Below are positions 3 through 49,087 of a stretch of DNA of 57,344 nt, piece by piece. Position numbers and translations under genes: made by a program. The stretch's first letter is position 1. Every line of letters begins with the position of its first letter. Source of the DNA: Candidatus Omnitrophota bacterium (GTDB lineage: Bacteria; Omnitrophota; Omnitrophia; Omnitrophales; JACROU01); NCBI GenBank assembly GCA_016214265.1, contig JACROU010000102.1, positions 1 through 57,344 on the forward strand, in the 5' to 3' direction. The notes beneath the pieces are model-generated. The model searched no databases, was not told where the DNA came from, and saw only the letters and a list, made by a program, of their open reading frames with translations.

Positions 3-1160
3 ATGCATATTTCCGGATTATCTGTGCAGGTTTCCCGCACTCGTTCGTGGGCTTTTAATCGGCGATTATTTCCTATTGTTCATCAATTGGACCGTATCCG
101 TGACGTTATGGGTTGGTTGTCATACATTTTATCAGGACCTAATCCTTTAACAGATCGTGATTGGTTGGAAATCAGGGGTATTTTTGAAGGTGCTTTTGGA
201 AGGGAGCTTGAAATGTTGCGCGGCGAACTGCTTAGTTTTCCGTTTGCCGTGACCCCGGCGCTTCTCGATTTGACGGGAGTCGAGAAGAATATTGATGTTG
301 ATTTGAAGTCGATGTCAAACCAGGAGAGGCTTGACTGGATAAAAAAGCAGCTCGAAAAAATTTCATTTGTAGATCAGAGGTCATTTCCACCGGGATCCAA
401 ACAGCATGTTTATCTTACTGTCGGTTTGGATCAGAAAAGCCGGTTTGCAAACTGCAAGAAAATGGACGTTCCGTTCCGAGTGACTGGTCCTGTTTTCGGT
501 AATGAATCGCATTATCCTTTTAAGCCAAAAATGGAAAGCTATTACGAGCTGCAAGTGCGTCCTGGTGTGAATGCCGGTGAACTTCTCGAATATATTTTGG
601 AACATGAACAAATTTTACCTTTGTTGCATCATCCCAGGTTCAAAGAAGAAGGCAGCACGATTTTGCAGACGCTCACCATGGCTTCCCATATTTTGAAGTA
701 TGAACCGCCAGGGATTCCCGCCAATTTGGAAGAAAAAATGCCGGAGACTTTACGGGTTCGTCTGATAGGAAAACCATATCTGCAGCAATTCGTTTGGCTG
801 ATTGCCACTCAGGGCTTTTTCCAGGCAAGGAAATTTGCCAAACAAAATGAAAGGTATCTTAACGAAGAGATAGGTCGTCTTCCCAAAAAAGGAATTCAAG
901 CTGTGGGACTTTCGCGTTTTGTGAAAAGTATTTTCATTCATGAGAATCTGTTGAATGAGCTGAGGTGGGTAATTCGCAACACTGGTCACGTCTATGCTAT
1001 GAATCCTCTTGATGTAGGATTTGAAGAAGTTTTGTCTGAAAGTGAAAGAGACTATCCCCTTACTGCTTATGGCAAATACCAATTTCCATACCCAATCGAA
1101 GAATATCAGCTGCTGGTTACTGGCGAAGAATTGACGGCTGTGTCCAAAATCCCGGCTGAA
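3..1160 (+). other. Giant protein segment 1: unrecognised N-terminal part
   Basis: Residues 1-386 of the visible product. It is soluble-looking, mixed alpha/beta, rich in aromatic and charged residues, with no signal peptide or repeat. Residues around 160-190 (FRVTGPVFGNES) look like a beta-rich patch followed by helices. I cannot assign a family. The segment ends in PAE just before the first GASLG. Confidence 0.6.
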
Positions 1161-4100
1161 GGCGCTAGCCTAGGGCAACATCAAATTGTAATTCCAGGCG
1201 CTGCTTGGGTGCCGGTAGAAATGGTAAAAAATTATGCCGGTGCAGAGCAAATTGATCGGGATTTCAAGGCGGGATTTTTTAAATGGGATGAACGCGGACA
1301 GCTTTGGGCGCCGGTCTTGCGCGATCCGACGTATCTGCCGTCTGATTTTATTGATAGGCGTTTTAGTTTTCATAAACGCTCTCTTTATGAACACTTGTCC
1401 GAAGAAGACGTTGCAAAAAGAATTCCTACACGCGCAATCAAAGGTGTTGGAGAAGCATATCATGACGTCCTTTTCTCTTATCTTCCTTATAAACGATTAA
1501 ACACTCAGAAATTTCGCGGGGGTGAGACAAAAGATATCGCCGATTACGCGGCGGGAATTGCCAAGCAAATCCGTAATGAATACGAGAAAGCGCTTCAGGA
1601 AAAAGATCCGGTGGTGATGCTGGCTAAAGAAAAATATGGAATTGATAGTGCGCCGACACTGCGTCCGCTTTATCTTCTTCAGCCAAAGAGAATCCCAGAA
1701 AAAATGTTTCGCCAGCGGGGTTATAAACTTAAGGACACCAAAAAGGAATTGAGGCGTGGCGGTTATATTCCTGAAGAATATGTTCAGAACCAGGTTGTTT
1801 TTGTTTACGAAGTGCCGCTTATGAGCCGCGTGTATGAAACAAGAATTTTGGAAAAGCAGAATATCGAAAAATTTCTTCTGTCTCCCTTGTTGGCATTTTC
1901 GGGTCCATCGGCTACGCCTGAATTTGCACTCAAGCAGTTTGCCGCTCGCCTTGCCGTAGCTCGTCATTTGATGGAACGCCGGCTCCACGGGACTTTTTCT
2001 GTGGATGTTGATTTTTCCAACAATTTCAATTTATCAATTCCTCTCGATCAGAGAAGCATTGTTTCCTCCTTATCGTCCAACAATGTAACTCTAACGGGAC
2101 ATGTCGTCGATTTGGATTCGGCGACTGTGTTTATGAAAAAAAGAAAACTGCCTTTGGGCCGGTTGATGGACGTTTTTTCCCAAAAGTGGACTTTTGCATT
2201 GATGGAAGCATTTCTCGGAGCTTCCGAGTGGCTAGATCCCGAAATCGGCCGCAAAGTTTTCGAAGAAGTTTATCAGGCTGGTGAGGTGAGGCCAGTGATG
2301 ACTGCCACCGGCGCGAGTTTGGGCGCGGATGATTGGAAGAAAGATCATCCTTGGACTGATCCTGATGCTTGGAAGAACGGTGAAAATTTTGATCCGAAAT
2401 TCGAAGCTCAGGATCCCAATGCCTGGAAAGGCGATCCGGAAACAGAAATGCAAACAGGAGCTGGGCCCAAAAACAAGGAGGACAGCCCCGCAGATATTCT
2501 GTTTCTTGAGAATAAATTGAAACAAGAAATGAAAAAACGCGATTGGAATAGCGCGCTCAAAACAATGGGTAAGATTGAAAGGCAAGCCTCGCTTCTTCCG
2601 GAACATTTGATTATTCGGGGAAGTATTTTGCGACTCCATCCCAATTCTTGGCCCGCCGCCGAGCGTGATTTTACCAACGCTGTTTTAATGGCAAAAGATC
2701 TGCCCAAAAATGAAGATACGCAGACATTGCTTCTGACAGCTTTGATTCAGAGAGGATCGCTGTATTTGAGTGAAAACCGGCTGAATTCCGCGATCGGTGA
2801 TTTCAGCAGGGCTTTGGACATTGATCCCGATGTCAGTGCAATTTTGCAACTGAGAGGGATGGCGTATCTGAAAGTTCCCGCTTGTGGCGAAGCCCGTCAA
2901 GATCTGGAAAGAGTAGCCTTTTTGGACGGCAAAGATACCGCACTCGAGGTGTATTTGGGGCTGGCTTATATTTATCACCAGCTCGGCGACCCGGCGTCAG
3001 AAGGCAGAATTCTTCGCCGGGCCTCGCAATACCATCCGCGTAATATCAAAATGGATTATTACAAAGCGCTTATGTTTTATCAAAATGACGCAGAGGATTC
3101 ATTGCGAAAAGCGCTGCTTAAAACCACAAATATTCTTAAGCGAGCTGAGCAGCCTGTCATAAGAAAGGCCGCGCTGTTGTTGAGGGCTGAAATTTATTTG
3201 CGTTTGAAAGAGGAAAATAAGGCAGAGAAATGTTTTGAAGACATCCTGAAACTTGATCCGATGAACTCGGATGTGATGATAACGCAGGCCGGGATTTTAT
3301 ACCGGCTGAATAAAAAGGAACAATCCCGGTCTCATTTGAGAGAGGCGCTTTTTTTGAGGTCGGGAGAAATTAAGAATGATGAATTTCAACTGTTTTTTGG
3401 CGCGCGTTATCGCTCGTTTCAGTATGTCATTAAACAAGGGCTGAATTTTCTTTTCACAGGTCAAGAATCCAGAAACTTAGAGGATATGTTGATGGAGGTG
3501 ATTGTTTCGCATTTAAGCAGCGAACGAGTGCGCGACCTCACCGAAAAAGAAATTTCCAAAATTCGAAAGAATGAAGATCCGGCGAAAAGATTGATTGAAA
3601 TCGATAAAGTTATGCAACGGGCAGGCCGGACAGTGCCGTTGCTTCTTGTCCGGGCAGAAACGTTGATGCAGCAATATTTTCTTGGCACCCAAGAGGATGA
3701 GTTGAGCAACATTCATTTGCTGGAGGCCGTTCGCAAAGATTATCTGGATATTTTAGAGCTGGATTCCGATCAGCCCATCGCCAAGCGGGGACTAAAAGAA
3801 GTGGAACGCTTGATCGAAAACGTTGATCGCGCCTCGATGGAAGAAGATGAGGGTAACTTTCCCGATGATGAAACTGCTGCCGGCGCGAGTTTGGGGGAAG
3901 AGTTCGAAAGTTACGCCGCCGGGTTTTTAAAAATTCGCCAGTCCATGCGGGCGATTAAGGATTTTATTGAGAATGGGGAAATGAAGAAGGTTGTTGAAGA
4001 GGCGTGGGGAGTTTCACTTGAAGATGAAGAGTTGGAAAATCTTACAATCAGTCTTGTTCATATCGTTCAAGTTCCCCTTCAGATAGTCAGGAACCAGCTA

Positions 4101-7100
4101 GATATTTGGTCTAGGGAAAAAGGTGGCGCTGTTTTTCAGAGAAATTTTGATGGTAGACATAAATTATTTAAAGAGTCAAAAGAAGAGCTGGAAAATTTTC
4201 TTTCCTCGGAAGATCAATTTTCCTCAATGCATCAAAAAAATCCCTCAAAAAGATCCGATACGCTCTCGGGTTTTGTCAAAAAAATGTTTAAAAAAAGAGG
4301 TGTGGAGCCGCAGCATATTCCTGCCTACGGTTCTGGGCCGTTTAAAAAAGCAGCCAGGGCAATCCGCGAACATATTCTTTCCCGTATCGCTGATATCGAA
4401 CACACGACAGATATGTTGATCGAGAAATTGAAAGCTAACGGAAATTCTTCCTCCAAAGTTGAGGGCGCGAGTTTGGGTGTGGATTCGCAATTCAGCTCCG
4501 ATGACCCGAACGGCGATTCGGCGAAATCTGATCTTGCAAGAACTTGGGGTTATATTTTGGAAAGGACAAACGGGGGTATGGCAAGAAAACAACCTCGTAT
4601 TATTGAAGAAATTTTGGCGCGATTCTTTAGTTCACTTCGGCAGACGAGTCCAAACGCGCGAGTTTTGGATTTGGGGACGCTGGATGGGAAGGTGCTCAGA
4701 ATTGCTCAGGGAATATTGAATAACAAAGCTGGGTTGCATGGAATAGACATTGCCGTTCAGGATCATACGGAAGCCGGAACGGGAAAATCCGCAATTCATT
4801 TTCATCATGAAGACATGGAAAATCTCGAAGCCAGTCATGATTTCCAGCCTGGATCTTTTGACGCTGTCACCAGCGTTTTCGCGGTTGAATACAGTGATGT
4901 CGCGAAAACATTGCAGGGGGTGTCGCGATTTTTGCGTCCCGGAGCGCGGGCCATTTTTGTGATGCATCACAAAAACTCTTATTACGTTCATCACGCAAGA
5001 GCGAGTAAACAAATAGAAGAATATATTTTTGCTTCGGGCGTTTTAGAGTCTATACGCAGTTTTCTAAATCGTCCTTCAGCAGAAGGCAGGCGGAAAATGG
5101 ATGGCTCGATCAAACCCATTATTTCCGAGATGAATCGGATTGAGGACCAGATTAAACAGGAGAAGGCTGTGCCGCCGGAGGTTTTGTCCTTGTTAACCCG
5201 AGGCCCCGCAATCTATAGAAAACAAATTGTGGATAAGATCATTCGGCATCATGAATTGACGGCAGATTTTAAAGATCTCGCGATGAGGTGGGAAAGCATT
5301 TCGAATTTTAGGGACTGTTTTGCGGACATTTTTCGTTCAATTGAACAACTGGATTTTCCCGCAGCAGTACAAAAATTGTCGTTGCTTGAAAAGGATGCCC
5401 ACTTTGACTACGAGCGGAACAGGTGCTTGCTTGAAAAAGCGGCCGTTTATGGGCCGGGGGATGAAGAAAAATTAAAGTCCTTATTTCATCAGCAAGACTT
5501 TGAGGTAGGTTCGCTCGAAGTCGTCTCCGATGACCTGGGAATTCATGGTTGGAAAGTCGAAATTCGCAAACCCGCATCGGTTCAAGCCGCAAGTTTAGGT
5601 CGCCAGGAGGAGATGACTAAAGTCCGGGAACTCAAGGGCGCGAGTTTGGGGGCAGCAACTCAACTTACTTGGCAAGGCGATAAATTCGCTCAAATGCATT
5701 TTGATCCGGCAGCCTATCAGGCCATGTCTGAAAAAGATCGGGACGCTTTGAAGCGAACTGTTGTGGGCAACGCCTCATCCCTTGAACAAGGCAAGGATTT
5801 CAAACGAAAAATTGGAGAAGATCCTGACGTTTATCGGTCGCTTCTTTTAAATTTTAACCGGCCCGGGGTCAAGCTTCAGGGGATTCAATATCCCGCCGCC
5901 CAGGTTAAAGGCGTTGTATTTAATTCAGGCCGCTTGGCAGAAGATTTCGACTTGCGCGCCGTGCGGAAGAAAGCGGGCTACGAAGCTGCCTCAGGTCCCG
6001 CGATGAAAATGCAATTTGAATCTGACGGTAGAATCGCGTGGATTCCCAAAGTCGTGACTCCGCGCGGTGCGATGCTTGTTGAGGAGGCTCAAAAAGAATT
6101 CCAGATGCATCAATTTTTCTTTTCGGGTGGTATGCCGGTGAATTATCCCATTGCCTATGGGACCTATCCGAAAGAAACGCCGGACCGCGACCGTAAGCTC
6201 GGACTTGTTGTTTTGGGGCAAAGAGCTCCTTATCAGGCCCGGATGGGTGAAGTGATGGATTATGCGATCGGCCAATTTGTTGAACCTGTGCTTAAGGCGC
6301 GCCAACAAGTCAAAGGAGCGGATTTTCAAACAATCGTGTTTCCTAAATTACTGGAAGTTCATCAACGGCTGAATTTTCTTTCTTATCATTTTGGACAATT
6401 GCTGAGGAAAATGCATGATACGAATCTACGAACTGGCTGGCCCGGCGCCATTCACGGAAATTTCCATTTAGGTAATATGAGCGGAGCGCCCACTGAAGGT
6501 GGGGGACTTGAATTTACCATTCATGATTTGGTGGATGCTGTTTCCAAAAAAGGACTTTCCAAGCCTGAAATATTTGCCCGGCAATCGCTCGATGTTCTTT
6601 CATCCGCGGAAAGTCTGTCCGAAGTCCAAACTTTGCTGAATAAATTTTTGGCCAAATGGCTAAAAGAAAATTTAGGGATGGAAGGTATTCCGGAATTGAA
6701 TTTAATGCCTTCGTTTATTGAAGGCTATTTTCACGATTTGGTTCAAGATCCCTCATTTCCATTATTAATGCAAGGGTTCTCACCGCTTGAAGGAAGCGAC
6801 GGAATTTCGCAATCGATTTGGCTTCAGATGACGCGGATAGAAATTGCCGAGCAGAGACCACTTTATCAAAGTGATTCCGTGTTCAATTCATTCATGCGGC
6901 ATGTGGCAGGAATTGATCAAGGAGGCAAGCCAGTTCAATCCCATGGCGCGAGTTTGGGTTCGCAAACGCCCGTTAGCATTTGGATTCATAATATTAAGGG
7001 AAAGAAATCGACTAAGTTGACCCTTGAGCCGAGAAGTGTGCGAGAAATTTTTGAACGTTCAGTAGAAATTGATACTGCCATGAAAAGTTGTGGAAATAAT

Positions 7101-10100
7101 TTCCGTTTCGAAATTACTTGTTCGGATGGAGTCAAGATGAAGAAATCCTCCAGCGACCCGACATGGGGCAATATTATGCTTCAACATGGGGATCAAGTGC
7201 ATTTTTATCCGATTGTGAAAGTGGAACCAAAACCCGTAGAAACTAAAGTCATAGCACTAGTATCAAAAGGTGTTTCCGCCATCCGGGAGCCTGTCACGGA
7301 ACAAAAAGTTTTGGAATCCGCCAAAGAAAAACCCGCCAGAGAAACAAAGCCTGCAGTAGTAAAAATTTCTACTTTATCAGAGCAAGGCGTGAATGAAGAT
7401 GCTTTAAAAAATGGGAAAGCACTTCTTCTTGAAATTGTCTTGAAACCTGAACAGATCAACTGGGAAAAAGAAAAATCAAATTTACCGGATCTTGCAGGAC
7501 TTCCTTTGGGAATTACAGATCAATATGGTGGAATTTATTATCAGCCCGAGTCGGGTAAGCAATTCGTTTGGTATGTCCCTGGAATGAAAGAAAGAGGATG
7601 GGGTGCTATCGCCAGGAAGGGTGAAGTTAAAGACGGTGTTTATGAACTTACAGTTGAATTTACCAGTAGAGGAAAATCGCCCGTTACAAAAACATTTTTG
7701 ATCGGGGTAGAACGAAAAGGTTTGAATTTGAAGGGTGGATCAATTCCTAACAGCGCATGGAGCATCGTTGATAAGGAAAAAGTTGCTTACAAGAGTAAAA
7801 GATCCGGTCTTGATTTACTGAGTGATATTGTCACGAAGCCCCGAGATTTTAATTGGACGAAAGAAGCAGCGACTCTTCCAAATTTGAAAGACCTTCCTTT
7901 GGGAACTACCAATAATGTCAGCAGACTCAATTGGCATCCAGTTCCGTCGTATCAATTTCATTGGAATATCAACGGACTTGGGGGCGGTTGGCAAGCTCGT
8001 GTTAAAGATACGGGAATTCGGGCAGGACTGTACGAACTTGTCGTAGAACTAACGAAAGTAGGTGAGGAGCCCGTCGAGAGAACTTTCCATATCGGCGTTC
8101 ATCGCGTAATTCTTACGGGGAAAAAGAACCAGGCTAGAAAGAAGTTAGAAGTATGGAATATCACCGATGGAGTAGGTCTTGAACTTCTTTCTAAAATAAT
8201 CATGAAGCCGGCAGATATTGATTGGGAAAAGGAAGCGAAAAGTTTACCCGATCTTACGGGCTTTCCGTTAGGCGAGACAGATGCACAGGGTCAGATTAAT
8301 TTTATGCCCTTTGCAAATTTTCAATTTACTTGGAGATTTTCTGGGTTCAAGGAATCAGGATGGAAAGTTCGCGTGAGGGAAGCGGGTGTGCGAAACGGGC
8401 TTTATCAACTAACGGTGGAATTGAGTAAAAAAGGAAGAGAACCTCAGCTTAAAACATATCTTGTAGGACTTGAGAGAAGAAACGCAAAGGGAACTCAATA
8501 TGAAACTGGCAATAAAAGAGAAGTTTGGAATTTGGTCGATCAGGACGTAGTGAAGGTAAGGGAAAGTAAATCTGGTCTCAAAGTATTGTCCGAAATCATT
8601 AAAAAGCCTGCTGACTTTGATTGGGAAAAGGAAGCGGCAAACTTGCCGAAGCTAAACGGGCTTCCTTTAGGTATTACAGATGACGGCGGAAAAATTTATC
8701 TCAGTCCTTTCAAGTATTTTCGATTCGATTGGCCTGTTTTGGGAACAAGGGGCGCTGGTTGGAAAGCCTACGTCAAAGATACAGGGATTCGTAACGGGCT
8801 ATTCATGATGACTGTTGCTTTGGAGAAAGATGGAGAACAGCCGATAGAAAAACAATTTTATATCGGGGTTGTGAGGAAAAAATTAAGAGGGACACTTAAA
8901 GAAGAAGGAGATCGCAAAGAAATTTGGGACATAGTAGACGAGGTTCCATTTCGCGTTATATCCCACTTGATGTCAAAATCTCGGCACGCTAACTGGGAAA
9001 AAGAAGCAAAAGGGGTTCCTTCGCTTAAAGGGTTTACATTGGGGAATGTGAATCAGTTTGGTCAGATCATTTTCCCAGTAGTGAGAAATTGTCTATATCG
9101 ATGGAATATTCTCGGAAGCATTGATTCAGGTTGGGAAGCGACTGTTGTTGATAGCGGTTTTTTAGAAAACGGAAGATTTCAGGTGACTGTGGAATTGACG
9201 AAAGAAGGACGGGATCCGATCCGCAAGAAATTTTTGATTGGCGTGACGCGCAAAAAGCTGAAGGGGTACAAAGTCGTTAAAGGGGAAAAAATCGATGCTT
9301 GGGGCGAAGTATGGAATCTTGTGGATTCCCAGGTAGCCGGCCTGAGGTTATTAGAAGAAATTGTTTCGCTTCCGGCCGATTTTAATTGGTTGAAGGAAGG
9401 TTCCAAGTTGCCAAATCTAAATGGACTGGAACTTGGTAATATTGATTCGGGAGGAAGAGTCTCTGTCTATTCTCAGGAAAATTATCAATATCTCTGGAAT
9501 ATTCTAGGTTTTCACGAAGAAGGATGGAAAGCCTCGATTAAGAAGACTGAGTTGGTCAATGGATTGTTAGAGCTAACAGTTAGTCTGACGAAAGATGAAA
9601 GAAATACGATTGAAAGAAAATTTTATTTAGGTTTTGGAAGACGTTCAGTGACCGGTAGATTGGGAGAAACGGGAAAAAAGATCGAGGTTTGGGAAATTGT
9701 GAATCGTATCGGGCCAAGAATCCTTTCAGAAATAATCACAAGACCCTATGATGGGAATTGGACGAAAGAAGTAAGTCGATTTCCGAGTCTCTCAGGTTTT
9801 CAGTTAGGTGTTACTGATCAAAAGGGTCACATCATATTCACTCCAATCACAAATTATTCTTTTATATGGTCTATCTTGGGCTATAGGGAAAAAGGATGGT
9901 CAGCGATTGTGGTGGAAAGCGGAGTTGTTGATGGAAATTACCAATTTGTTGTAGAACTTCGAAAAGAAGGAAAACAGTCTCTTCGCAGGATTTTTAGGAT
10001 AGGTCCTCAAGTACGAAAGCTTAAGATTCAGTCTAAAATTGAAGGTTCTGAAAAAAACGTCTTGAACATTATCAACGTCAAATCTCTTTTGAGTTTGGCA

Positions 10101-13100
10101 ACCGTTAGTGTAGAAAGCCGAGAAGGAGAGAGGACGGCTTTGTGGGTTAAGAGAACAGAAGGATATGATGTGACGAGTGATTATGAAAATCCTTGGAAAA
10201 GCGCGGCAGCAAAAGAGCTGGTTGAGAAATTAGGAGCCGTAATGGAAACATTGAAAGGCCAGTCAATTGATATCGCAGCTCGTTTGGTTTCCGGTGAGGA
10301 AGAGCAAGACCTTGTTCAAGAAGGGGAGTATTCAGCGGATGAAGTTCAAAAAGTAAAAATCAAACTTCAGGAAGGACTCCGAGAATATGGGAATGAACAA
10401 CAAATCGGATCCGGCGCGAGTTTGGGCCGTCTTACGCGGGAAGAGGAAGAAACCAGAAGATTGCTTTCAATTCTTCTCACAAAGCCGAAAGATTATTCCT
10501 GGAAAGAATTTGAACAAACTCTTCCACAGCTCGCGGGGCGGCCCTTAGGCGCTATTGATGCGCATGGATTGATTTGGTTCAGTCCCAGAATAGGATTTCT
10601 TTTTCCCTGGCCTGTGCTGGGAAGTTCTGAAAAAGGATGGCATGGTGTGATTACATCAAGCGGTGTTGTAAATGGTTATTATCGATTTACGGTGAAATTA
10701 TCCAAGGCCGGAAAATCCATCGAGAGAATATTTCAGGTGGGGCCGTATTCCCGAATTTTGCGCGGACGTAACGGGAAATCGTATTCCTCCCAGGAAATTT
10801 TGGATCTTTTGGATGTCAACAATGATTTGGGGCTTGCCATGATTGCCGATCTTGTTTCTCAGCCGGCCAATGTGGATTGGAAGAAAGTGACACGCCGTTT
10901 GCATGATCTGGAGGGAATGCCTCTGGGCGAGGTGCCAACAACAGGGGTGATCAGTCTTCCCATCGATGCCAATTTCAGATATCGATGGAAAGTGGGCAAC
11001 AGAGAACATTCCTCGAGAAAAGCGCAATTTGAAACATGGTGGATTGAAAATGGTCATGTTCGGTTTAGCATTCTGTTGAGGGAAAATGATCAGGCTTTCA
11101 GAAGGGAATATCAAATAGGGCCTGAGCGAAGATTGTTGAGCAGTGAAGGAGCCACTGTTACCGGGAAGGTACCGGAAATATTTCAGATGAAATTAATTAA
11201 TACTGTCAAGCTTCCATCCTCCCGAGGCGCGAGTTTGGGTAGCAGTCCCCTGGAATTTCTGGGCAAAAATCATGATTTGCGGAAGTTTGCGGAGAAATAT
11301 CTCAGCCGGCGTTATCGGTTATGGGGACTTGACGCAAGTTTGGCCGGGAATATTTTAGACGTTCTGGTAACCCATCAGAACGATCCCGATATGGCCAGGC
11401 AGAAGGTGTATGAAAATGTCATCCGTTTTGAGACTGATAAGCGTTGGAAAGCGGCATACGACCGGTACCAGGAAGCAACGAAATACACGGCGGGATATTT
11501 TCAAATAAAACCTTACCTTAAGAATCTTCCAACGGGTGCGGTTCTGGTCGATGTCGGAGCCGGTAATAATGCTCTTGGAAAAGTCATTGCCCGGAATCAA
11601 GCGGGTCTGACCGTTATCGGAACCGATATCTATGATTATCACGAGGAACACGGATTGCCCAATCTGCGATTTGTTCAGCAACGGCAAGCCGATCGGCTTT
11701 CATTCGAGGATCATTTTGTTGATGTCGTTGTGTTGAATGCCATGTTGCATCATGTTTCTGGCGATCTTCTTGAGCCCCTGTTGAACGAAATCCGCCGTGT
11801 GTTAAAGCCCGGTGGAAGAGTCCTGTTAATCGAAGATACGTATTCAGAAACTGTTTCCCCGGATCCTGCTTCAGACGCGGAGCTTACCAGTGAGTTTCTA
11901 GGATTGGTCCGGAAAACCGGCAGCGAGTTTGCAAAGAATTTTTTCACTTTCAATGATTGGTATGCAAATATTCTCGTACATCAATGGACAGGAATGGCAA
12001 TACCGTATAATTTTCACTCGATGGAGGAATGGCAGGAAATATTCAAAAAGTCCGGTTTCAGTTCCGCTCAAGCCAGGTATCTGGGATTTCCTAAACAAGG
12101 TTTTCACAAACCCAGTTTGGCTATCCAGGTGTTTTCAGCCGTCCCGTTAGCGGTTGCTTCCGCCGGCGCGAGTTTGGGCCGCGTCCGGGGAAAAAATCAA
12201 GATGCCGAAATTCAAGAAACAAAACTTCTTCTTTCAGAACTTGTTACTAAACCTGCTAATTTTGACTGGAAGGCAAATGCCAAAAAAATTCCTCAATTAA
12301 AGGGTCACCGCTTAGGGGTTTCGAATAAGGGCGGAACCATTCCATTTTCTCCTGGTATTAATTATCTCTATTCTTGGTCTATCGTGGGATCGGATGAAGG
12401 AGGATGGGATGCCGTGATAACCGATAGTGGTATCTTTGGCAATGTTTTCCGCTTCTCAGTTTTACTCAAAAAGCCGGGGAAGAAACCCATTCAAAGAGAA
12501 TTCCAAATTGGGCCTGAGACTAGAATCCTAAAATTAGATAGTAGAGTGCGAAAAAGTACGATGGAAGTTTTGCGTATTATTCCTCTGAGTGAAATTGCTC
12601 GCGACGGTCTTTCAGAAATTCTCACTAAACCCGTAGATTTTAATTGGGCTGCGAATGCGAATCGTCTTCCTGATTTAAGCGGGTTGCCGTTAGGTGTAAC
12701 TAACACCCTCGGTCAAATTGGTATCTATCCCGTTAGAAATTATATATTCGGATGGCCAATTCTTGGTTCTGCAAAAGAAGGATGGGAAGCGTTCGTTATA
12801 AAAAGTGAAGTTAATGGGAACTATTATCAATTGACTGTGAGATTGACGAAGTCAGGTGAAGAATCTATTGAGAAAGTTTTTCAGATCGGACATTACACAC
12901 GGACAGTGAGAGGAATTAATGAAAATTCAGGAAAATTGATGGAAGTTTTAGACGTGGATGATCAATTGGGTCTTAGGGCTCTCAGTGAATTGGTGACAAA
13001 ACCTAGGAATTCTAAATGGGATTCGAAAGCTGGTAATTTGCCGGATATCAGGGGGCTGCGACTAGGAATTACAAATAAAAGCGGGCGAGTTTCATTTTCT

Positions 13101-15758
13101 CCTGTGCAGAATTACGGCTATGACTGGGCCGTTTTGGGAACAGAAGATGGGGGATGGCAGGCTGTAATCAAAGATAGCAGTATCAACAATGGATATTATC
13201 AATTTACTGTGGAGCTCACGAAAAAAGGAGAAAAGCCGCTTTATCGAACATTTCAGATTGGGCGATTTACGAGAACTCTGAAAAGAAGTCCTGTCAGAAC
13301 AAAAGATAATACCGTCCACATTTTGGATATGGATGATCGGTTAGGGCTTCGGGCTCTTTCTGAACTCATCATGAAACCAAAAAACTTTGATTGGAAATCA
13401 AATGAGGCTGATTTGCCACAATTAAAAGGATTGCAGTTGGGAGCAACAAATATCGGCGGACGCATTTCTTTTGCTCCTCTTAAAAATTATATTTTCAATT
13501 GGACTGCTCTTGGATTTCATGAATCGGGCTGGAACGCCGTCATTACTGATTATGAATATCATAAGAATTATGTTCAATTTACGGTAGAGCTTACGAAGCA
13601 AAGACGAAATCCTGTTTATAGAACATTTCAAATCAGCTCTGTCACTACGAATATCGTTGGTGTTAATGAAGACAAGGGCAGAGTTAAAGAAGTTTTAGAA
13701 ATTGATGATCGATTGGGACTCCAACAGCTCAGTAAATTAATCATCCAGCCGGAAGATTATAACTGGAAAGCAAATGTAGGCTCATTGCCAGATTTAACTG
13801 GGTTGCAGCTTGGGGAGACTAATGTTCAAGGACATATTTCATTTAGTCCTGCTACCAATCGTTCCTTCTCTTGGCCTGTTTTCGGATCAAGGTCAAATGG
13901 AAAAGGATGGAAGGCTGTTGTTTTGAAAAGCGGTGTCAAAGGGAAATATTTTCAATTTATCGTCGAGCTTACCCAAAACGGTTCTTCCCCCATTCAGAGA
14001 ACTTTTCAGATCGGTCCTTACACAAAATTTTTAAGAAATTCAGTAACGGGAAGAAAGTCAGATCTTCGCGTTTTAAATTTTATTGATCTGAAAACTGTTA
14101 TGAGTTTAGCAACTGAAGGAGTTGTGAAAACAAGAACAAGGGAATGGGATATGAGGACAGAAAAGCAAATACCTGTTGCCGCGACAGAACAGCCGCTTCA
14201 GCAAGTTATAACCCGGGAGATTTTAGAATCTTTGGAAAAAATAATTAGTAGTATGAATGAAAAAGAGGGTGAGATTGCTTCCAGAATTGTCGGTGGTGAA
14301 GAAGATGAAGATTTAGTCTCAGGGGACGAGTTTACTCAGGATGAGGTTCGAAAAGTGCGAGAGAATCTTCAGAAAGAATTAAAAGTTTTTGTCGGAAATG
14401 GAAGATTTTCCGGCTCGAGTTTGGGGCAGTCAGATAGAAGGGGGCCTTTTGAAGAGAAGGTTTCGCACCGGTTAACTGAAATACAGACCGCTTATGACGC
14501 TTTAACCCGTTTAATGCAGGATGGCGCTGATTTTGACCAGGTTTTAGCGAGAAATTTTCCCGGCGCTTCCCCGAACGAGAAAGTGATGCGTTGGGCTGTC
14601 AAAAGAATTTTTTCACATTATGTTTCAACAGCCGCCATGATTTCCGGATTGATCAAGCTCCAAGAAGCTCAGCCGTCCGGTTCTTTTACGAGAATTGTAG
14701 CGTCGCCCTTGCGTCGTCAGCTTGATGTGCTTAAGGGCGTACTTGAAGATTGGACAAGATTCAAGGCTGAAGAAGAGGTTCATAATTATGCTATCGCCAT
14801 CAATTTCGCGCTAGAAGAAGCACCCGGATTGGACCGGGCTCAATTTGAACAATATTTTTGGGATCATTCGAAAAAGATTGCGGCAGAAATTAAAGATGTA
14901 CTCTATCCGAGGGTGCTTTCCATTGAAACAAATATACAAGAATTAGTGGCGAAGGGCGCAAGTTTGGGGGTGGATCGAGCAGATTACTCAGACCGCGCGG
15001 ATGAGGCGATTATTCCGGTCGCGGTTGAAGTGACGAATAAGATTTTTGCGAAAGAGGATGCCGCGCTTCTCGGCGATGTGCTGGATGTGATGCTTGGCAT
15101 TGGCGTCGCGCGGGCGGATGTTTCGCCTCCGCAGATGATTGCTCCCGGAATTACGGTAGATGAGTTATCACGGCGTCTTATTAGCCGTGTGATTCCGAGC
15201 GTGCTTCCGGATTCTCCGGTGGCGGTGGTAGTGACGGAATCGGAGCTCGCGAGCGGAAAAGAAAATGTGAACGCGCTGATCGACAGCTTGCGCGACGGCG
15301 ATTTGGTGGTCGAAATCGATAATCCCGCTACGGCGGATAATCTCCTCGCGCTCCTGCGTTCACGCGCTCGCGGAAAGAAAATTATCGTGAAAAGCTTGGC
15401 AACCACTTCGCCTCTAGCCGCTGAGCTTGAAGCGAAACTCAAAGGTTACGAGTCCCGGTTCTCGCTGGAAGAAATCCAGGATTTGATTTCTGTTCCCTCG
15501 ACGAAAAAAGAAATGATTCATTTTTCAATTAATCAGAAACTTCTTTTCGAGCATCACATTGCTCCGCAAGTGGTGGATTCGCTGTTGAGACGGTTGGCTC
15601 AGGTCAAAGATTTAAGAACCCGCGGACTCATTTTTCAGCAGGCGGGACTTGAGCGTATTGATGACGCGCATTGGTTAGTGGGGGAGAGACTCGTGAAATT
15701 GATCGAAAAACTTCAAACCGAGCTTGCCGGACACAAAATTATGGCGCAAGCAGCGTAA
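3..15758 (+). CDS. Giant modular protein with GASLG seams (5' end outside window)
   Basis: At least 5,251 residues. The frame is open to the left edge, so the ATG at base 3 is only the first visible Met and the true start probably lies upstream. I do not recognise the protein as a whole. Twelve copies of GASLG or a variant (AASLG, GSSLG) begin at residues 387, 770, 1294, 1488, 1862, 1879, 2315, 3471, 3742, 4055, 4804 and 4985. They cut the chain into 13 segments of 17 to 1,156 residues, and each recognisable fold falls inside a single segment: TPR, two methyltransferases, a kinase-like domain, helical modules and a 14-copy repeat. I see no transmembrane helix or signal peptide in the visible part. 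Giant proteins are known from Omnitrophota. The polyprotein reading is my inference. The gene ends with TAA 65 bases before tRNA-Gln. Confidence 0.93.
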   Translation: MHISGLSVQVSRTRSWAFNRRLFPIVHQLDRIRDVMGWLSYILSGPNPLTDRDWLEIRGIFEGAFGRELEMLRGELLSFPFAVTPALLDLTGVEKNIDVDLKSMSNQERLDWIKKQLEKISFVDQRSFPPGSKQHVYLTVGLDQKSRFANCKKMDVPFRVTGPVFGNESHYPFKPKMESYYELQVRPGVNAGELLEYILEHEQILPLLHHPRFKEEGSTILQTLTMASHILKYEPPGIPANLEEKMPETLRVRLIGKPYLQQFVWLIATQGFFQARKFAKQNERYLNEEIGRLPKKGIQAVGLSRFVKSIFIHENLLNELRWVIRNTGHVYAMNPLDVGFEEVLSESERDYPLTAYGKYQFPYPIEEYQLLVTGEELTAVSKIPAEGASLGQHQIVIPGAAWVPVEMVKNYAGAEQIDRDFKAGFFKWDERGQLWAPVLRDPTYLPSDFIDRRFSFHKRSLYEHLSEEDVAKRIPTRAIKGVGEAYHDVLFSYLPYKRLNTQKFRGGETKDIADYAAGIAKQIRNEYEKALQEKDPVVMLAKEKYGIDSAPTLRPLYLLQPKRIPEKMFRQRGYKLKDTKKELRRGGYIPEEYVQNQVVFVYEVPLMSRVYETRILEKQNIEKFLLSPLLAFSGPSATPEFALKQFAARLAVARHLMERRLHGTFSVDVDFSNNFNLSIPLDQRSIVSSLSSNNVTLTGHVVDLDSATVFMKKRKLPLGRLMDVFSQKWTFALMEAFLGASEWLDPEIGRKVFEEVYQAGEVRPVMTATGASLGADDWKKDHPWTDPDAWKNGENFDPKFEAQDPNAWKGDPETEMQTGAGPKNKEDSPADILFLENKLKQEMKKRDWNSALKTMGKIERQASLLPEHLIIRGSILRLHPNSWPAAERDFTNAVLMAKDLPKNEDTQTLLLTALIQRGSLYLSENRLNSAIGDFSRALDIDPDVSAILQLRGMAYLKVPACGEARQDLERVAFLDGKDTALEVYLGLAYIYHQLGDPASEGRILRRASQYHPRNIKMDYYKALMFYQNDAEDSLRKALLKTTNILKRAEQPVIRKAALLLRAEIYLRLKEENKAEKCFEDILKLDPMNSDVMITQAGILYRLNKKEQSRSHLREALFLRSGEIKNDEFQLFFGARYRSFQYVIKQGLNFLFTGQESRNLEDMLMEVIVSHLSSERVRDLTEKEISKIRKNEDPAKRLIEIDKVMQRAGRTVPLLLVRAETLMQQYFLGTQEDELSNIHLLEAVRKDYLDILELDSDQPIAKRGLKEVERLIENVDRASMEEDEGNFPDDETAAGASLGEEFESYAAGFLKIRQSMRAIKDFIENGEMKKVVEEAWGVSLEDEELENLTISLVHIVQVPLQIVRNQLDIWSREKGGAVFQRNFDGRHKLFKESKEELENFLSSEDQFSSMHQKNPSKRSDTLSGFVKKMFKKRGVEPQHIPAYGSGPFKKAARAIREHILSRIADIEHTTDMLIEKLKANGNSSSKVEGASLGVDSQFSSDDPNGDSAKSDLARTWGYILERTNGGMARKQPRIIEEILARFFSSLRQTSPNARVLDLGTLDGKVLRIAQGILNNKAGLHGIDIAVQDHTEAGTGKSAIHFHHEDMENLEASHDFQPGSFDAVTSVFAVEYSDVAKTLQGVSRFLRPGARAIFVMHHKNSYYVHHARASKQIEEYIFASGVLESIRSFLNRPSAEGRRKMDGSIKPIISEMNRIEDQIKQEKAVPPEVLSLLTRGPAIYRKQIVDKIIRHHELTADFKDLAMRWESISNFRDCFADIFRSIEQLDFPAAVQKLSLLEKDAHFDYERNRCLLEKAAVYGPGDEEKLKSLFHQQDFEVGSLEVVSDDLGIHGWKVEIRKPASVQAASLGRQEEMTKVRELKGASLGAATQLTWQGDKFAQMHFDPAAYQAMSEKDRDALKRTVVGNASSLEQGKDFKRKIGEDPDVYRSLLLNFNRPGVKLQGIQYPAAQVKGVVFNSGRLAEDFDLRAVRKKAGYEAASGPAMKMQFESDGRIAWIPKVVTPRGAMLVEEAQKEFQMHQFFFSGGMPVNYPIAYGTYPKETPDRDRKLGLVVLGQRAPYQARMGEVMDYAIGQFVEPVLKARQQVKGADFQTIVFPKLLEVHQRLNFLSYHFGQLLRKMHDTNLRTGWPGAIHGNFHLGNMSGAPTEGGGLEFTIHDLVDAVSKKGLSKPEIFARQSLDVLSSAESLSEVQTLLNKFLAKWLKENLGMEGIPELNLMPSFIEGYFHDLVQDPSFPLLMQGFSPLEGSDGISQSIWLQMTRIEIAEQRPLYQSDSVFNSFMRHVAGIDQGGKPVQSHGASLGSQTPVSIWIHNIKGKKSTKLTLEPRSVREIFERSVEIDTAMKSCGNNFRFEITCSDGVKMKKSSSDPTWGNIMLQHGDQVHFYPIVKVEPKPVETKVIALVSKGVSAIREPVTEQKVLESAKEKPARETKPAVVKISTLSEQGVNEDALKNGKALLLEIVLKPEQINWEKEKSNLPDLAGLPLGITDQYGGIYYQPESGKQFVWYVPGMKERGWGAIARKGEVKDGVYELTVEFTSRGKSPVTKTFLIGVERKGLNLKGGSIPNSAWSIVDKEKVAYKSKRSGLDLLSDIVTKPRDFNWTKEAATLPNLKDLPLGTTNNVSRLNWHPVPSYQFHWNINGLGGGWQARVKDTGIRAGLYELVVELTKVGEEPVERTFHIGVHRVILTGKKNQARKKLEVWNITDGVGLELLSKIIMKPADIDWEKEAKSLPDLTGFPLGETDAQGQINFMPFANFQFTWRFSGFKESGWKVRVREAGVRNGLYQLTVELSKKGREPQLKTYLVGLERRNAKGTQYETGNKREVWNLVDQDVVKVRESKSGLKVLSEIIKKPADFDWEKEAANLPKLNGLPLGITDDGGKIYLSPFKYFRFDWPVLGTRGAGWKAYVKDTGIRNGLFMMTVALEKDGEQPIEKQFYIGVVRKKLRGTLKEEGDRKEIWDIVDEVPFRVISHLMSKSRHANWEKEAKGVPSLKGFTLGNVNQFGQIIFPVVRNCLYRWNILGSIDSGWEATVVDSGFLENGRFQVTVELTKEGRDPIRKKFLIGVTRKKLKGYKVVKGEKIDAWGEVWNLVDSQVAGLRLLEEIVSLPADFNWLKEGSKLPNLNGLELGNIDSGGRVSVYSQENYQYLWNILGFHEEGWKASIKKTELVNGLLELTVSLTKDERNTIERKFYLGFGRRSVTGRLGETGKKIEVWEIVNRIGPRILSEIITRPYDGNWTKEVSRFPSLSGFQLGVTDQKGHIIFTPITNYSFIWSILGYREKGWSAIVVESGVVDGNYQFVVELRKEGKQSLRRIFRIGPQVRKLKIQSKIEGSEKNVLNIINVKSLLSLATVSVESREGERTALWVKRTEGYDVTSDYENPWKSAAAKELVEKLGAVMETLKGQSIDIAARLVSGEEEQDLVQEGEYSADEVQKVKIKLQEGLREYGNEQQIGSGASLGRLTREEEETRRLLSILLTKPKDYSWKEFEQTLPQLAGRPLGAIDAHGLIWFSPRIGFLFPWPVLGSSEKGWHGVITSSGVVNGYYRFTVKLSKAGKSIERIFQVGPYSRILRGRNGKSYSSQEILDLLDVNNDLGLAMIADLVSQPANVDWKKVTRRLHDLEGMPLGEVPTTGVISLPIDANFRYRWKVGNREHSSRKAQFETWWIENGHVRFSILLRENDQAFRREYQIGPERRLLSSEGATVTGKVPEIFQMKLINTVKLPSSRGASLGSSPLEFLGKNHDLRKFAEKYLSRRYRLWGLDASLAGNILDVLVTHQNDPDMARQKVYENVIRFETDKRWKAAYDRYQEATKYTAGYFQIKPYLKNLPTGAVLVDVGAGNNALGKVIARNQAGLTVIGTDIYDYHEEHGLPNLRFVQQRQADRLSFEDHFVDVVVLNAMLHHVSGDLLEPLLNEIRRVLKPGGRVLLIEDTYSETVSPDPASDAELTSEFLGLVRKTGSEFAKNFFTFNDWYANILVHQWTGMAIPYNFHSMEEWQEIFKKSGFSSAQARYLGFPKQGFHKPSLAIQVFSAVPLAVASAGASLGRVRGKNQDAEIQETKLLLSELVTKPANFDWKANAKKIPQLKGHRLGVSNKGGTIPFSPGINYLYSWSIVGSDEGGWDAVITDSGIFGNVFRFSVLLKKPGKKPIQREFQIGPETRILKLDSRVRKSTMEVLRIIPLSEIARDGLSEILTKPVDFNWAANANRLPDLSGLPLGVTNTLGQIGIYPVRNYIFGWPILGSAKEGWEAFVIKSEVNGNYYQLTVRLTKSGEESIEKVFQIGHYTRTVRGINENSGKLMEVLDVDDQLGLRALSELVTKPRNSKWDSKAGNLPDIRGLRLGITNKSGRVSFSPVQNYGYDWAVLGTEDGGWQAVIKDSSINNGYYQFTVELTKKGEKPLYRTFQIGRFTRTLKRSPVRTKDNTVHILDMDDRLGLRALSELIMKPKNFDWKSNEADLPQLKGLQLGATNIGGRISFAPLKNYIFNWTALGFHESGWNAVITDYEYHKNYVQFTVELTKQRRNPVYRTFQISSVTTNIVGVNEDKGRVKEVLEIDDRLGLQQLSKLIIQPEDYNWKANVGSLPDLTGLQLGETNVQGHISFSPATNRSFSWPVFGSRSNGKGWKAVVLKSGVKGKYFQFIVELTQNGSSPIQRTFQIGPYTKFLRNSVTGRKSDLRVLNFIDLKTVMSLATEGVVKTRTREWDMRTEKQIPVAATEQPLQQVITREILESLEKIISSMNEKEGEIASRIVGGEEDEDLVSGDEFTQDEVRKVRENLQKELKVFVGNGRFSGSSLGQSDRRGPFEEKVSHRLTEIQTAYDALTRLMQDGADFDQVLARNFPGASPNEKVMRWAVKRIFSHYVSTAAMISGLIKLQEAQPSGSFTRIVASPLRRQLDVLKGVLEDWTRFKAEEEVHNYAIAINFALEEAPGLDRAQFEQYFWDHSKKIAAEIKDVLYPRVLSIETNIQELVAKGASLGVDRADYSDRADEAIIPVAVEVTNKIFAKEDAALLGDVLDVMLGIGVARADVSPPQMIAPGITVDELSRRLISRVIPSVLPDSPVAVVVTESELASGKENVNALIDSLRDGDLVVEIDNPATADNLLALLRSRARGKKIIVKSLATTSPLAAELEAKLKGYESRFSLEEIQDLISVPSTKKEMIHFSINQKLLFEHHIAPQVVDSLLRRLAQVKDLRTRGLIFQQAGLERIDDAHWLVGERLVKLIEKLQTELAGHKIMAQAA
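1161..2309 (+). other. Giant protein segment 2: unrecognised, possible kinase-like C-lobe
   Basis: Residues 387-769. The only suggestive feature is near the end: HGTFSVDVDFSNNFNL, then about 25 residues later GHVVDLDSATV. The spacing of an HG, an Asn and a DLD resembles the catalytic and metal loops of phosphotransferase-type kinases. No N-lobe is evident, so the assignment is weak. The sequence is soluble and basic in its middle (KKELRRGGY). Confidence 0.45.
2310..3881 (+). other. Giant protein segment 3: TPR domain
   Basis: Residues 770-1293. It opens with a Trp/Asp-rich low-complexity stretch (DDWKKDHPWTDPDAWK), then a series of tetratricopeptide repeats. The clearest are LYLSENRLNSAIGDFSRALDIDP, here split as LYLSENRLNSAIGDF plus SRALDIDP, and YLRLKEENKAEKCF plus EDILKLDP. 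TPRs are protein-binding scaffolds, so this module probably docks a partner. The end is acidic (SMEEDEGNFPDDE). Confidence 0.85.
3882..4463 (+). other. Giant protein segment 4: helical module, related to segment 12
   Basis: Residues 1294-1487, predicted all-alpha. The middle helix carries LTISLVHIVQVPLQIV and the last helix reads AARAIREHILSRIADIEHTT. Segment 12 shows the same layout and a similar last helix (KKIAAEIKDVLYPRVLSIET). I do not recognise the family. Confidence 0.5.
4464..5585 (+). other. Giant protein segment 5: SAM-methyltransferase fold, divergent
   Basis: Residues 1488-1861. Motif I is VLDLGTLDGKVL (from residue 1554), followed by the acidic strand end LHGIDIA and a motif IV-like FDAVTSVFAVEYSDV, then FLRPGARAIFVMHH. 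This order is that of a class I Rossmann methyltransferase. The glycine-rich loop has Thr-Leu where GxG is usual, so SAM binding is not certain. About 200 helical residues follow the fold. The substrate is unknown. Confidence 0.8.
5586..5636 (+). other. Giant protein segment 6: 17-residue remnant between two seams
   Basis: Residues 1862-1878 read AASLGRQEEMTKVRELK and are bounded by the variant seam AASLG and a standard GASLG only 51 bases later. It is too short to fold. It could be a linker, or what remains after a module was lost or before one was gained. Confidence 0.8.
5637..6944 (+). other. Giant protein segment 7: kinase-like (APH-type) domain, likely inactive or altered
   Basis: Residues 1879-2314. 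A possible N-lobe has a beta-3 Lys in IPKVVTPRG, then an alpha-C-like helix (EEAQKEFQMHQFF) and the turn MPVNYPIAYGTYP. The C-lobe has HFGQLLRKMHD, then HGNFHLGN (residues 2151-2158) and FTIHDLVDA. This matches the order of aminoglycoside-phosphotransferase-like kinases, where the loop is usually HGDxHxxN. Here Asn replaces the catalytic Asp. The DLVD may serve the metal-binding loop. I infer a pseudokinase or a kinase with changed chemistry. Confidence 0.65.
6945..10412 (+). other. Giant protein segment 8: beta-grasp-like head, repeats 1-7, cap
   Basis: Residues 2315-3470. The first ~90 residues look like a small beta-rich domain ending in LQHGDQVHFYPIV, reminiscent of ubiquitin/ThiS-like folds (weak). 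A Pro/Lys/Glu linker follows. Seven tandem repeats begin at 7419, 7806, 8175, 8574, 8949, 9339 and 9711 (123-133 residues each). Each has the pattern KPxDxxWxKE, LPxLxGLPLG, GxIxFxP, NYxFxWxxLG, GWxAxV, NGxYQxTVELTK, then IGxxRRxLxG. A cap follows from about 10059, rich in Glu, with AARLVSGEEEQDLV and DEVQKVKIKLQ. Confidence 0.85.
10413..11225 (+). other. Giant protein segment 9: repeats 8 and 9
   Basis: Residues 3471-3741. Repeat 8 starts near 10455 with LLSILLTKPKDYSW and keeps the full pattern including GWHGVI and VGPYSRILRG. Repeat 9 starts at 10827 and is the most divergent copy: GMPLG and YQIGPERRLL remain, but the GW turn is lost. There is no cap domain after this pair. Confidence 0.85.
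11226..12164 (+). other. Giant protein segment 10: SAM-dependent methyltransferase
   Basis: Residues 3742-4054. A helical lead-in of about 100 residues precedes a textbook class I methyltransferase core: VLVDVGAGNNALG (from residue 3847), acidic strand end VIGTDIYDY, motif IV VDVVVLNAMLHHV, and RVLKPGGRVLLIED. The order resembles UbiE/Methyltransf_11 enzymes. The motifs look intact, unlike segment 5, so this one may be active. The segment sits between repeat blocks, as if inserted into a longer array. Confidence 0.88.
12165..14411 (+). other. Giant protein segment 11: repeats 10-14 plus second cap
   Basis: Residues 4055-4803. Repeats start at 12219, 12603, 12966, 13341 and 13713. They are closer to each other than to repeats 1-7, sharing the lead-in LGLRALSELxxKP and the ending FQIGxxTRxLxG. 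The C-terminal ~115 residues (from about 14060) resemble the cap after repeat 7: MSLATEGV versus LSLATVSV, ASRIVGGEEDEDLV versus AARLVSGEEEQDLV, DEVRKVRENLQ versus DEVQKVKIKLQ. The block is AT-rich relative to the gene end. Confidence 0.87.
14412..14954 (+). other. Giant protein segment 12: helical module, related to segment 4
   Basis: Residues 4804-4984, bounded by the variant seam GSSLG. It is all-alpha, probably a helical bundle, with RIFSHYVSTAAMISGLIKL and a last helix KKIAAEIKDVLYPRVLSIET. No catalytic motif is visible. Confidence 0.5.
14955..15758 (+). other. Giant protein segment 13: C-terminal domain, GC-rich
   Basis: Residues 4985-5251, mixed alpha/beta: VAVEVTNKIF, SPVAVVVTESELASG, DGDLVVEIDN, ARGKKIIVKSLAT. 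It may be a Rossmann-like alpha/beta domain followed by a helical tail, but I cannot name a family. Base composition differs sharply from the repeats (40 of 60 bases are G or C in 15061-15120, against 20 of 60 in 13681-13740). Being the terminal module, it could carry a sorting or processing signal. Confidence 0.5.
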
Positions 15759-49051: not shown

Positions 49052-49087
49052 TTATTTGTTAATTATTGTTTGCAAAGTGGGGGGCTT

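Follow-up and report, generated by a model that had tools for sequence, protein, structure and literature searches.

Giant open reading frames (ORFs) in one order of the Omnitrophota are punctuated by a short peptide that is conserved as protein, stands between homology modules, and takes a form that follows the lineage of the genome. Such ORFs are among the largest bacterial genes known. We tentatively propose, at slightly less than even confidence, that much of the giant proteome of this order consists of exported polyproteins that would be cut at the punctuation peptide, and that the peptide and a protease acting in trans may have changed in concert from lineage to lineage (SLG versus RxExR), with modules, including a new repeat family, found across lineages. 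The peptide provides a parsing key, by which unreadable chains resolve into ordinary-sized modules, each open to annotation, modelling and expression by itself, and it predicts exact termini which are checkable by proteomics. If the sites are cut, they would reveal a genome-wide bacterial polyprotein system, and the two dialects would then form a natural experiment for finding the protease. The repeat is of interest by itself, as an apparently new family of domains for which the structure model is confident.

A Punctuated Giant Open Reading Frame

The stretch of DNA analysed here (hereafter the window) is 57,344 nucleotides long and is a complete contig (C93) of a 2.3 Mb genome in 102 contigs (G000), which its relatives place among uncultured Omnitrophota. 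One ORF, already open at the first bases of the contig and with its 5' end cut off by the contig end, encodes at least 5251 aa (Table 1). It contains twelve [GA][AS]SLG sites and, in a single frame, all 14 copies of the repeat, which are arranged in three arrays bounded by GASLG or GSSLG: copies 1–7 with a cap, copies 8 and 9, and copies 10–14 with a cap. A methyltransferase module, itself bounded by GASLG, separates copy 9 from copy 10. The C-terminus (...KIMAQAA) resembles the ends of other giants in the class. Elsewhere in the window, at 49070–50344, a ParA/MinD-like ATPase (AAA_31, E 1.6e-57) is fused at its C-terminus to an AMPK1-type glycogen-binding domain (E 1.6e-11), which is an odd pairing.

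Table 1. Layout of the giant ORF in the window; positions are nucleotides counted from the first base of the window.
Feature	Positions	Strand	Basis or remark
Giant modular ORF, 5251 aa, 5'-cut	3..15758	+	
Delimiter GASLG	1161..1175	+	
Delimiter GASLG	2310..2324	+	
TPR-repeat module	2325..3881	+	Pfam TPR_8, E 3.8e-13
Delimiter GASLG	3882..3896	+	
Delimiter GASLG	4464..4478	+	
Methyltransferase module	4479..5585	+	Methyltransf_11, E 6.1e-8
Delimiter AASLG	5586..5600	+	
Delimiter GASLG	5637..5651	+	
Module without clear Pfam match	5652..6944	+	
Delimiter GASLG, opening first repeat module	6945..6959	+	
Repeat 1	7404..7766	+	Profile and alignment
Repeat 2	7797..8159	+	Profile and alignment
Repeat 3	8166..8528	+	Profile and alignment
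Repeat 4	8565..8927	+	Profile and alignment
Repeat 5	8937..9299	+	Profile and alignment
Repeat 6	9330..9692	+	Profile and alignment
Repeat 7	9702..10064	+	Profile and alignment
Helical cap closing array 1	10065..10412	+	Homologous caps in L097/L098 weakly HTH-like
Delimiter GASLG	10413..10427	+	
Repeat 8, first after a delimiter, nearest to repeat 10	10443..10805	+	
Repeat 9, most divergent copy	10821..11183	+	
Delimiter GASLG	11226..11240	+	
Methyltransferase module flanked by two delimiters	11241..12164	+	Methyltransf_11, E 1.2e-13
Delimiter GASLG	12165..12179	+	
Repeat 10	12210..12572	+	Profile and alignment
Repeat 11	12588..12950	+	Profile and alignment
Repeat 12	12960..13322	+	Single-copy structure model
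Repeat 13	13335..13697	+	Modelled in tandem with repeat 12
Repeat 14	13707..14069	+	Profile and alignment
Helical cap closing array 3	14070..14411	+	Repeats-plus-cap unit kept in G009
Delimiter GSSLG	14412..14426	+	
Delimiter GASLG	14955..14969	+	
C-terminal module, ends ...AQAA-COOH	14970..15755	+	

The Delimiter Stands between Homology Modules

This ORF and at least a dozen other ORFs of the same genome are punctuated by [GA][ASKR]SLG, which occurs 100 times in the sampled giant ORFs of the genome, as compared with 0.47 expected, the reversed motif being found once. At these sites (the S form), the residue at position -2 to the G/A is A or V in 80 of 132 cases, and the fuller delimiter, in the window's family as well as in family f8, reads [AV]x[GA][AS]SLG. 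The delimiters run in the sense of the ORF. The DNA of 80 S sites in this genome comprises 64 distinct 15-mers and uses both serine codon blocks (AGY and TCN), and 26 sites of the R form, which is described below, comprise 25 distinct 15-mers in genome G018. The delimiters are conserved as protein, not as DNA, and a dispersed DNA repeat is rejected as their source because of this codon diversity. More broadly, the delimiters might be regarded as remnants that a dispersed DNA element, or recombination between modules, has left behind and that do nothing in the protein, since several sites of the window have GGCGCGAGTTTGGG in common and one giant ORF of another genome (L098) contains DNA-level repeats; the synonymous differences among the sites, their ORF-sense orientation and the change of the peptide between lineages nevertheless render such an origin very improbable.

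When the head domains are set aside, the number of delimiter crossings by Blast stretches shared between different ORFs is 30 for SLG genomes, versus 81.7 ± 14.3 at rotated positions, and 6 for RxExR genomes, versus 70.3 ± 16.5; none of 1000 rotations gave a number as low in either dialect. The delimiters stand between homology modules, and the median module length between them is 416 aa. Among the 144 Pfam families matched in 77 modules are TPR, WD40, HEAT, histidine-kinase ATPase, ABC1-kinase-like and methyltransferase families. Certain delimiter-like sites fall within the units of tandem repeats and have been duplicated together with these units, which counts against an explanation by cutting.

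Two Delimiter Dialects across the Omnitrophota

In the giant ORFs sampled from 37 genomes, the SLG dialect is found in families f1 (G000, G001 and G002) and f8 (clear in G048, with one site in G047), and the RxExR dialect in families f2, f3, f4 and f5, whereas neither kind of site occurs more than once in G039, G045 or G046. Where relatives of the repeat occur in f3 and f4, the punctuation around them is R[SA]E[VMLAIT]R. In the sampled giant ORFs, the S form occurs 20 times in G002 (0.18 expected) and 6 times in G048 (0.10 expected), and the R form 26 times in G018 (0.28), 18 in G009 (0.14), 15 in G022 (0.14) and 15 in G034 (0.09); the two motifs barely overlap, and there is almost no cross-use. 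Whole-genome counts give the same division. RSE[VMIL]R is found 256, 161, 102 and 55 times in G018, G025, G022 and G026, versus 17, 16, 6 and 4 for the reversed pattern, as against 12, 0 and 6 times in the SLG genomes G000, G002 and G048, and 3 times and once in two genomes outside the class. Conversely, the SLG pattern is found 69 and 78 times in G000 and G002 (reversed, 15 and 5), is weaker in G048 (18 versus 13 reversed), and reaches 4–10 in RxExR genomes, at or below the reversed-pattern control. Sampled giants of Omnitrophota outside the class contain neither delimiter, save for one stray SLG site. The repeat family occurs under both dialects, each time flanked by the delimiter of its own host, and the form of the delimiter follows the lineage or genome, and not the module or the head paralogue.

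Several giant ORFs contain other recurrent short peptides. One ORF of family f4 (L085, G042) has frequent HAELR and RPELR and few R[SA]ExR, perhaps as a drifting sub-dialect, and one from another Omnitrophota family (L104, G229) has about nine copies each of TDASG and TQTHL and 13 of SGAAP, which may be linkers of a different kind. In Ca. Omnitrophota bin.644 (L098), the stretches MKQGTGE, TTNDE and ALAKA are nearly identical in DNA and are read in frame; these DNA-level repeats (MKQGTGE, TTNDEQRTTNDE, ALAKA) lie at linkers, at aa 1036, 2601, 2891, 3156 and others, and differ in kind from the delimiters. The same giant ORF also carries six copies of the repeat described below.

The 121-Residue Repeat and Its Predicted Structure

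The original prediction described 14 copies of a repeat of about 125 residues, and these are confirmed as 14 copies of a 121-aa unit, with domain boundaries that differ by only 6–15 nt from the starts first given. The core motifs described at that time are present, and W20, L35, G36 and W56 are invariant across the 14 copies. Leave-one-out profiles recover every copy, at E-values from 5.6e-19 (copy 9) to 3.4e-43, as compared with E > 100 or no match for shuffled copies. Pairwise identity among the copies is 20–47%; copies 10–14 are mutually closer (39–47%, versus 28–42% for copies 1–7), as had been predicted, copy 8 groups with them, and this pattern of similarity bears out the proposed growth of blocks by local duplication. 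In a profile search of the genome, the 14 matches were all in this ORF, and no further copies were found elsewhere.

The claim that the repeat belongs to no known family, for which a profile search had been named as a check, also holds. A Pfam scan of the 14 copies singly and of the whole ORF gave a best E of 0.034 for the repeat, below the curated cut-off, NCBIfam gave no match in the repeat regions in the same scan, and the best E of the repeat profile against PDB sequences was 0.42. Relatives are found in long open frames in 7 more genomes of the same order. The best of them, at 144 bits, is in the RxExR genome G009 (MHFU01000056.1, Omnitrophica bacterium RIFOXYB12_FULL_50_7), as compared with 55 bits in the same-family genome G002; this closest relative is flanked by RSEVR, and the repeats-plus-cap unit is 41% identical between it and the window over 475 aa. 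Caps in L097 and L098 give weak matches to GerE and sigma-70 region 4 (E 0.023 and 0.0099), a hint, no more, that the array-closing caps may be of HTH origin.

AlphaFold predicts a single copy (repeat 12, with a 23-row alignment) at pLDDT 89.7 and pTM 0.80, and the tandem pair of repeats 12 and 13 (10 rows) at pLDDT 92.0 and pTM 0.85. The model of two tandem copies, which had been suggested as a further check, is confident and agrees with that of the single copy. In both, an N-terminal helix leads into a sheet of seven to eight strands, curved like a small barrel, and the beta-sandwich proposed originally is not supported; Ig/FN3-like chains are not at the top of the structural match lists for the repeat, although the lists alone are no proof. 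Foldseek searches with the repeat models found nothing at E 0.001 or better. A second structural search returned many weak SH3-like barrels (Tudor, EF-P domain I, ribosomal proteins) at Z 2.7–4.3. The core of the bead is weakly like these small barrels, which are without the extra N-terminal helix of the repeat and have no sequence match to it, and the likeness is too weak for a fold assignment. The absence of a strong match to the predicted models does not prove that the fold is new.

The repeat appears to be a new family of alpha+beta beads of about 121 aa. A role of the arrays as rod, adhesin or binding surface, as suggested originally, is plausible, and we favour a reading in which the arrays with their helical cap would act, like beads on a string, in binding or as a spacer. 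A row of beads that share one fold and end in a cap might also suit an ordinary rod or adhesin domain to whose function the punctuation is unrelated. Against this, the start and end of the arrays coincide with delimiters in both dialects, namely in the window and in the relative L140, where 12 repeats form two six-repeat arrays split by RSEMR, and an unrelated punctuation seems scarcely probable.

The TIKI-Like Head Domain and the Ends of the Giants

The paralogous giants have an N-terminal head domain, which is found in 49 of the 49 genomes of the class, with up to 36 matches per genome, and in 143 of the 285 genomes of the phylum. It lies at the ORF start in sampled cases, and a hydrophobic signal-like segment precedes it in 72 of 82 ORFs, versus 5.5 expected. 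A His, a Glu at aligned H+28, an Arg (R435) and a second His (H463) are invariant in 88 of 88 heads. In the TIKI endopeptidase RRSP, His-3902, Glu-3930, Arg-4001 and His-4030 are all required for activity, and in Bcr135 the His/Glu pair (85/113) has the same spacing as RRSP 3902/3930 (PMC6254334). The head has in common with the TIKI/EreA/ChaN superfamily the His–Glu spacing of 28, the conserved Arg and the second His, with an R435–H463 spacing of 28 versus 29 in RRSP. It differs in its first acidic residue, two before the His, which is Glu in TIKI and mostly Asp here (D 69, N 9, E 5 and T 3 of 88), as well as in its fusion to giant modular chains. ChaN (PF04187) is the most frequent Pfam match to the head, though sub-threshold (5 of 32 members at E up to 1, best 0.0085), and the head-domain profile gave only chance-level matches against PDB sequences. 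Because the residues match RRSP but ChaN stays sub-threshold, the head is named TIKI-like on its sequence, and is not filed as a TIKI member.

Omnitrophota outside the class that have neither delimiter also possess this head, and some proteins of about 530 aa consist of it alone, so that it is not tied to the delimiters. Stand-alone heads of 528–532 aa (L114 and L115, in G071 and G204) represent a family with few copies per genome, and are perhaps the ancestral form. When 88 head domains are placed on a tree, those of the SLG dialect do not group as a single clade, and well-supported branches force at least five changes. It is conceivable that the head cleaves the chain of which it is a part, in cis and at the delimiters, as it heads the ORFs, keeps the His/Glu/Arg/His set throughout, and resembles RRSP, a proven endopeptidase of the TIKI superfamily (PMC6254334). 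Such autoprocessing is weakened by the tree, since the heads of the two dialects are intermixed and each paralogue lineage would have to switch its specificity in parallel; the occurrence of heads without delimiters and alone also speaks against it, and we consider it quite unlikely.

Complete giants with two or more delimiters end in alanine in 21 of 25 cases, mostly as [AS]A, as compared with 24 of 218 small ORFs. Two full-length relatives that bear repeats, L139 (5908 aa, SLG) and L140 (5049 aa, R form), combine the signal-like segment, head, delimiters, repeats and a terminal MA or AA in one chain. Giants outside the class (L101, L102, L106, L109, L118 and L103) end in a charged helix followed by a small residue and V or L (WSV, YSV, RAV, TAL, RSL), and these ends possibly parallel [AS]A as a phylum-wide C-terminal signal. 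Another contig of the window's genome (G000:C1; L091, L096) has an open frame of 24,618 aa, in which a head lies at 72060–73856 on the minus strand, and no delimiter in the frames sampled; in L096 a long plus-strand frame is open over 20 kb. The original prediction saw no export signal beside the repeats. None is visible in the window's ORF because its 5' end is cut off, and as a sign against export the observation does not stand, given that L139, L140 and the 72 of 82 head-bearing ORFs have a signal-like N-terminus. The window's ORF would, judging from these relatives, have a signal and head of its own, and the giant protein with the repeats is probably exported.

Possible Release of Modules at the Delimiters

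We give about even weight to a reading in which the giants are exported modular proteins, and a lineage-specific factor, acting in trans, recognises the delimiters and most probably cuts there. The precursor would enter the Sec pathway, and the factor, serving the whole genome and most likely a protease, would recognise the delimiters. The modules, whose median length is that of an ordinary protein, would then be released or separated at these sites, so that the giant ORF would work like a polyprotein or multi-effector precursor, with the cap-closed arrays as binding or spacer modules inside it. That the delimiter tracks the genome, and not the module or head paralogue, points to one trans-acting recogniser per genome. 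Since the SLG heads are not one clade, a number of paralogue lineages would have changed their delimiter in parallel, which is what a trans factor demands. Of the possible recognisers a protease is the most probable, because the sites are short, lie between self-sufficient modules and, in the SLG form, have small residues at fixed places. No protease fitting the dialects was found among those searched in 48 genomes, C11 being present in none and C14 in 3. An Arg-specific C11 or a caspase-like C14 enzyme as cutter of the R dialect was rejected, as these families are absent from most genomes.

The same sites could instead be uncut recognition or anchor peptides for a secretion chaperone, a translocon partner or a surface scaffold, with the giant remaining one chain and the arrays serving as rod or adhesin. 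Short, strongly conserved sites that recur between modules are expected on this account too, the C11 and C14 searches accord with it, and the giants are described as coats or adhesins in the accessible text of a published account (PMC10066038). It is harder to reconcile with the intracellular-type enzymes that the delimiters bound (methyltransferases, histidine-kinase ATPase, ABC1 kinase-like), which have no clear use in a rod, and with the small-residue rule [AV]x[GA] of the S sites, which is of the kind that many proteases want. We regard anchoring as possible, if on the unlikely side.

Comparison with Known Systems

Giant ORFs of Omnitrophota with few annotated domains and a proposed extracellular role were presented by Seymour et al. 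2023 (PMC10066038), and such giants have been interpreted as coats, as adhesins or as proteins for predation (PMC10066038; PMC12057145), as far as the accessible text of these sources goes. Within that text, the work of Seymour et al. 2023 concerns the same phylum, and does not report delimiters, dialects, the shared TIKI-like head or this repeat family (PMC10066038). In the literature searched, neither GASLG nor RxExR was found as a motif in the delimiter sense, nor were delimiters or dialects, and polyproteins were not found mentioned together with Omnitrophota. The repeat family, the punctuation and the lineage switch appear to be new, the giant ORFs of Omnitrophota being already known.

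MARTX toxins autoprocess with a protease of their own. Like the Omnitrophota giants as read here, they are giant and secreted, and their effector modules are released at interdomain sites. Among these effectors, RRSP is a TIKI-superfamily endopeptidase (PMC6254334). Neither RTX repeats nor a cysteine protease domain is among the Pfam matches listed for the Omnitrophota giants (those of the window's ORF, and the 25 commonest of the 144 families in 77 modules), and the delimiter of these giants differs in being a fixed, lineage-specific pentapeptide, with up to hundreds per genome. Viral-type polyproteins contain several functional units in one ORF, with short conserved sites between them. The giants likewise have modules separated by conserved sites, but they are bacterial, we infer their cutting, and dozens of paralogous ORFs per genome share the same sites.
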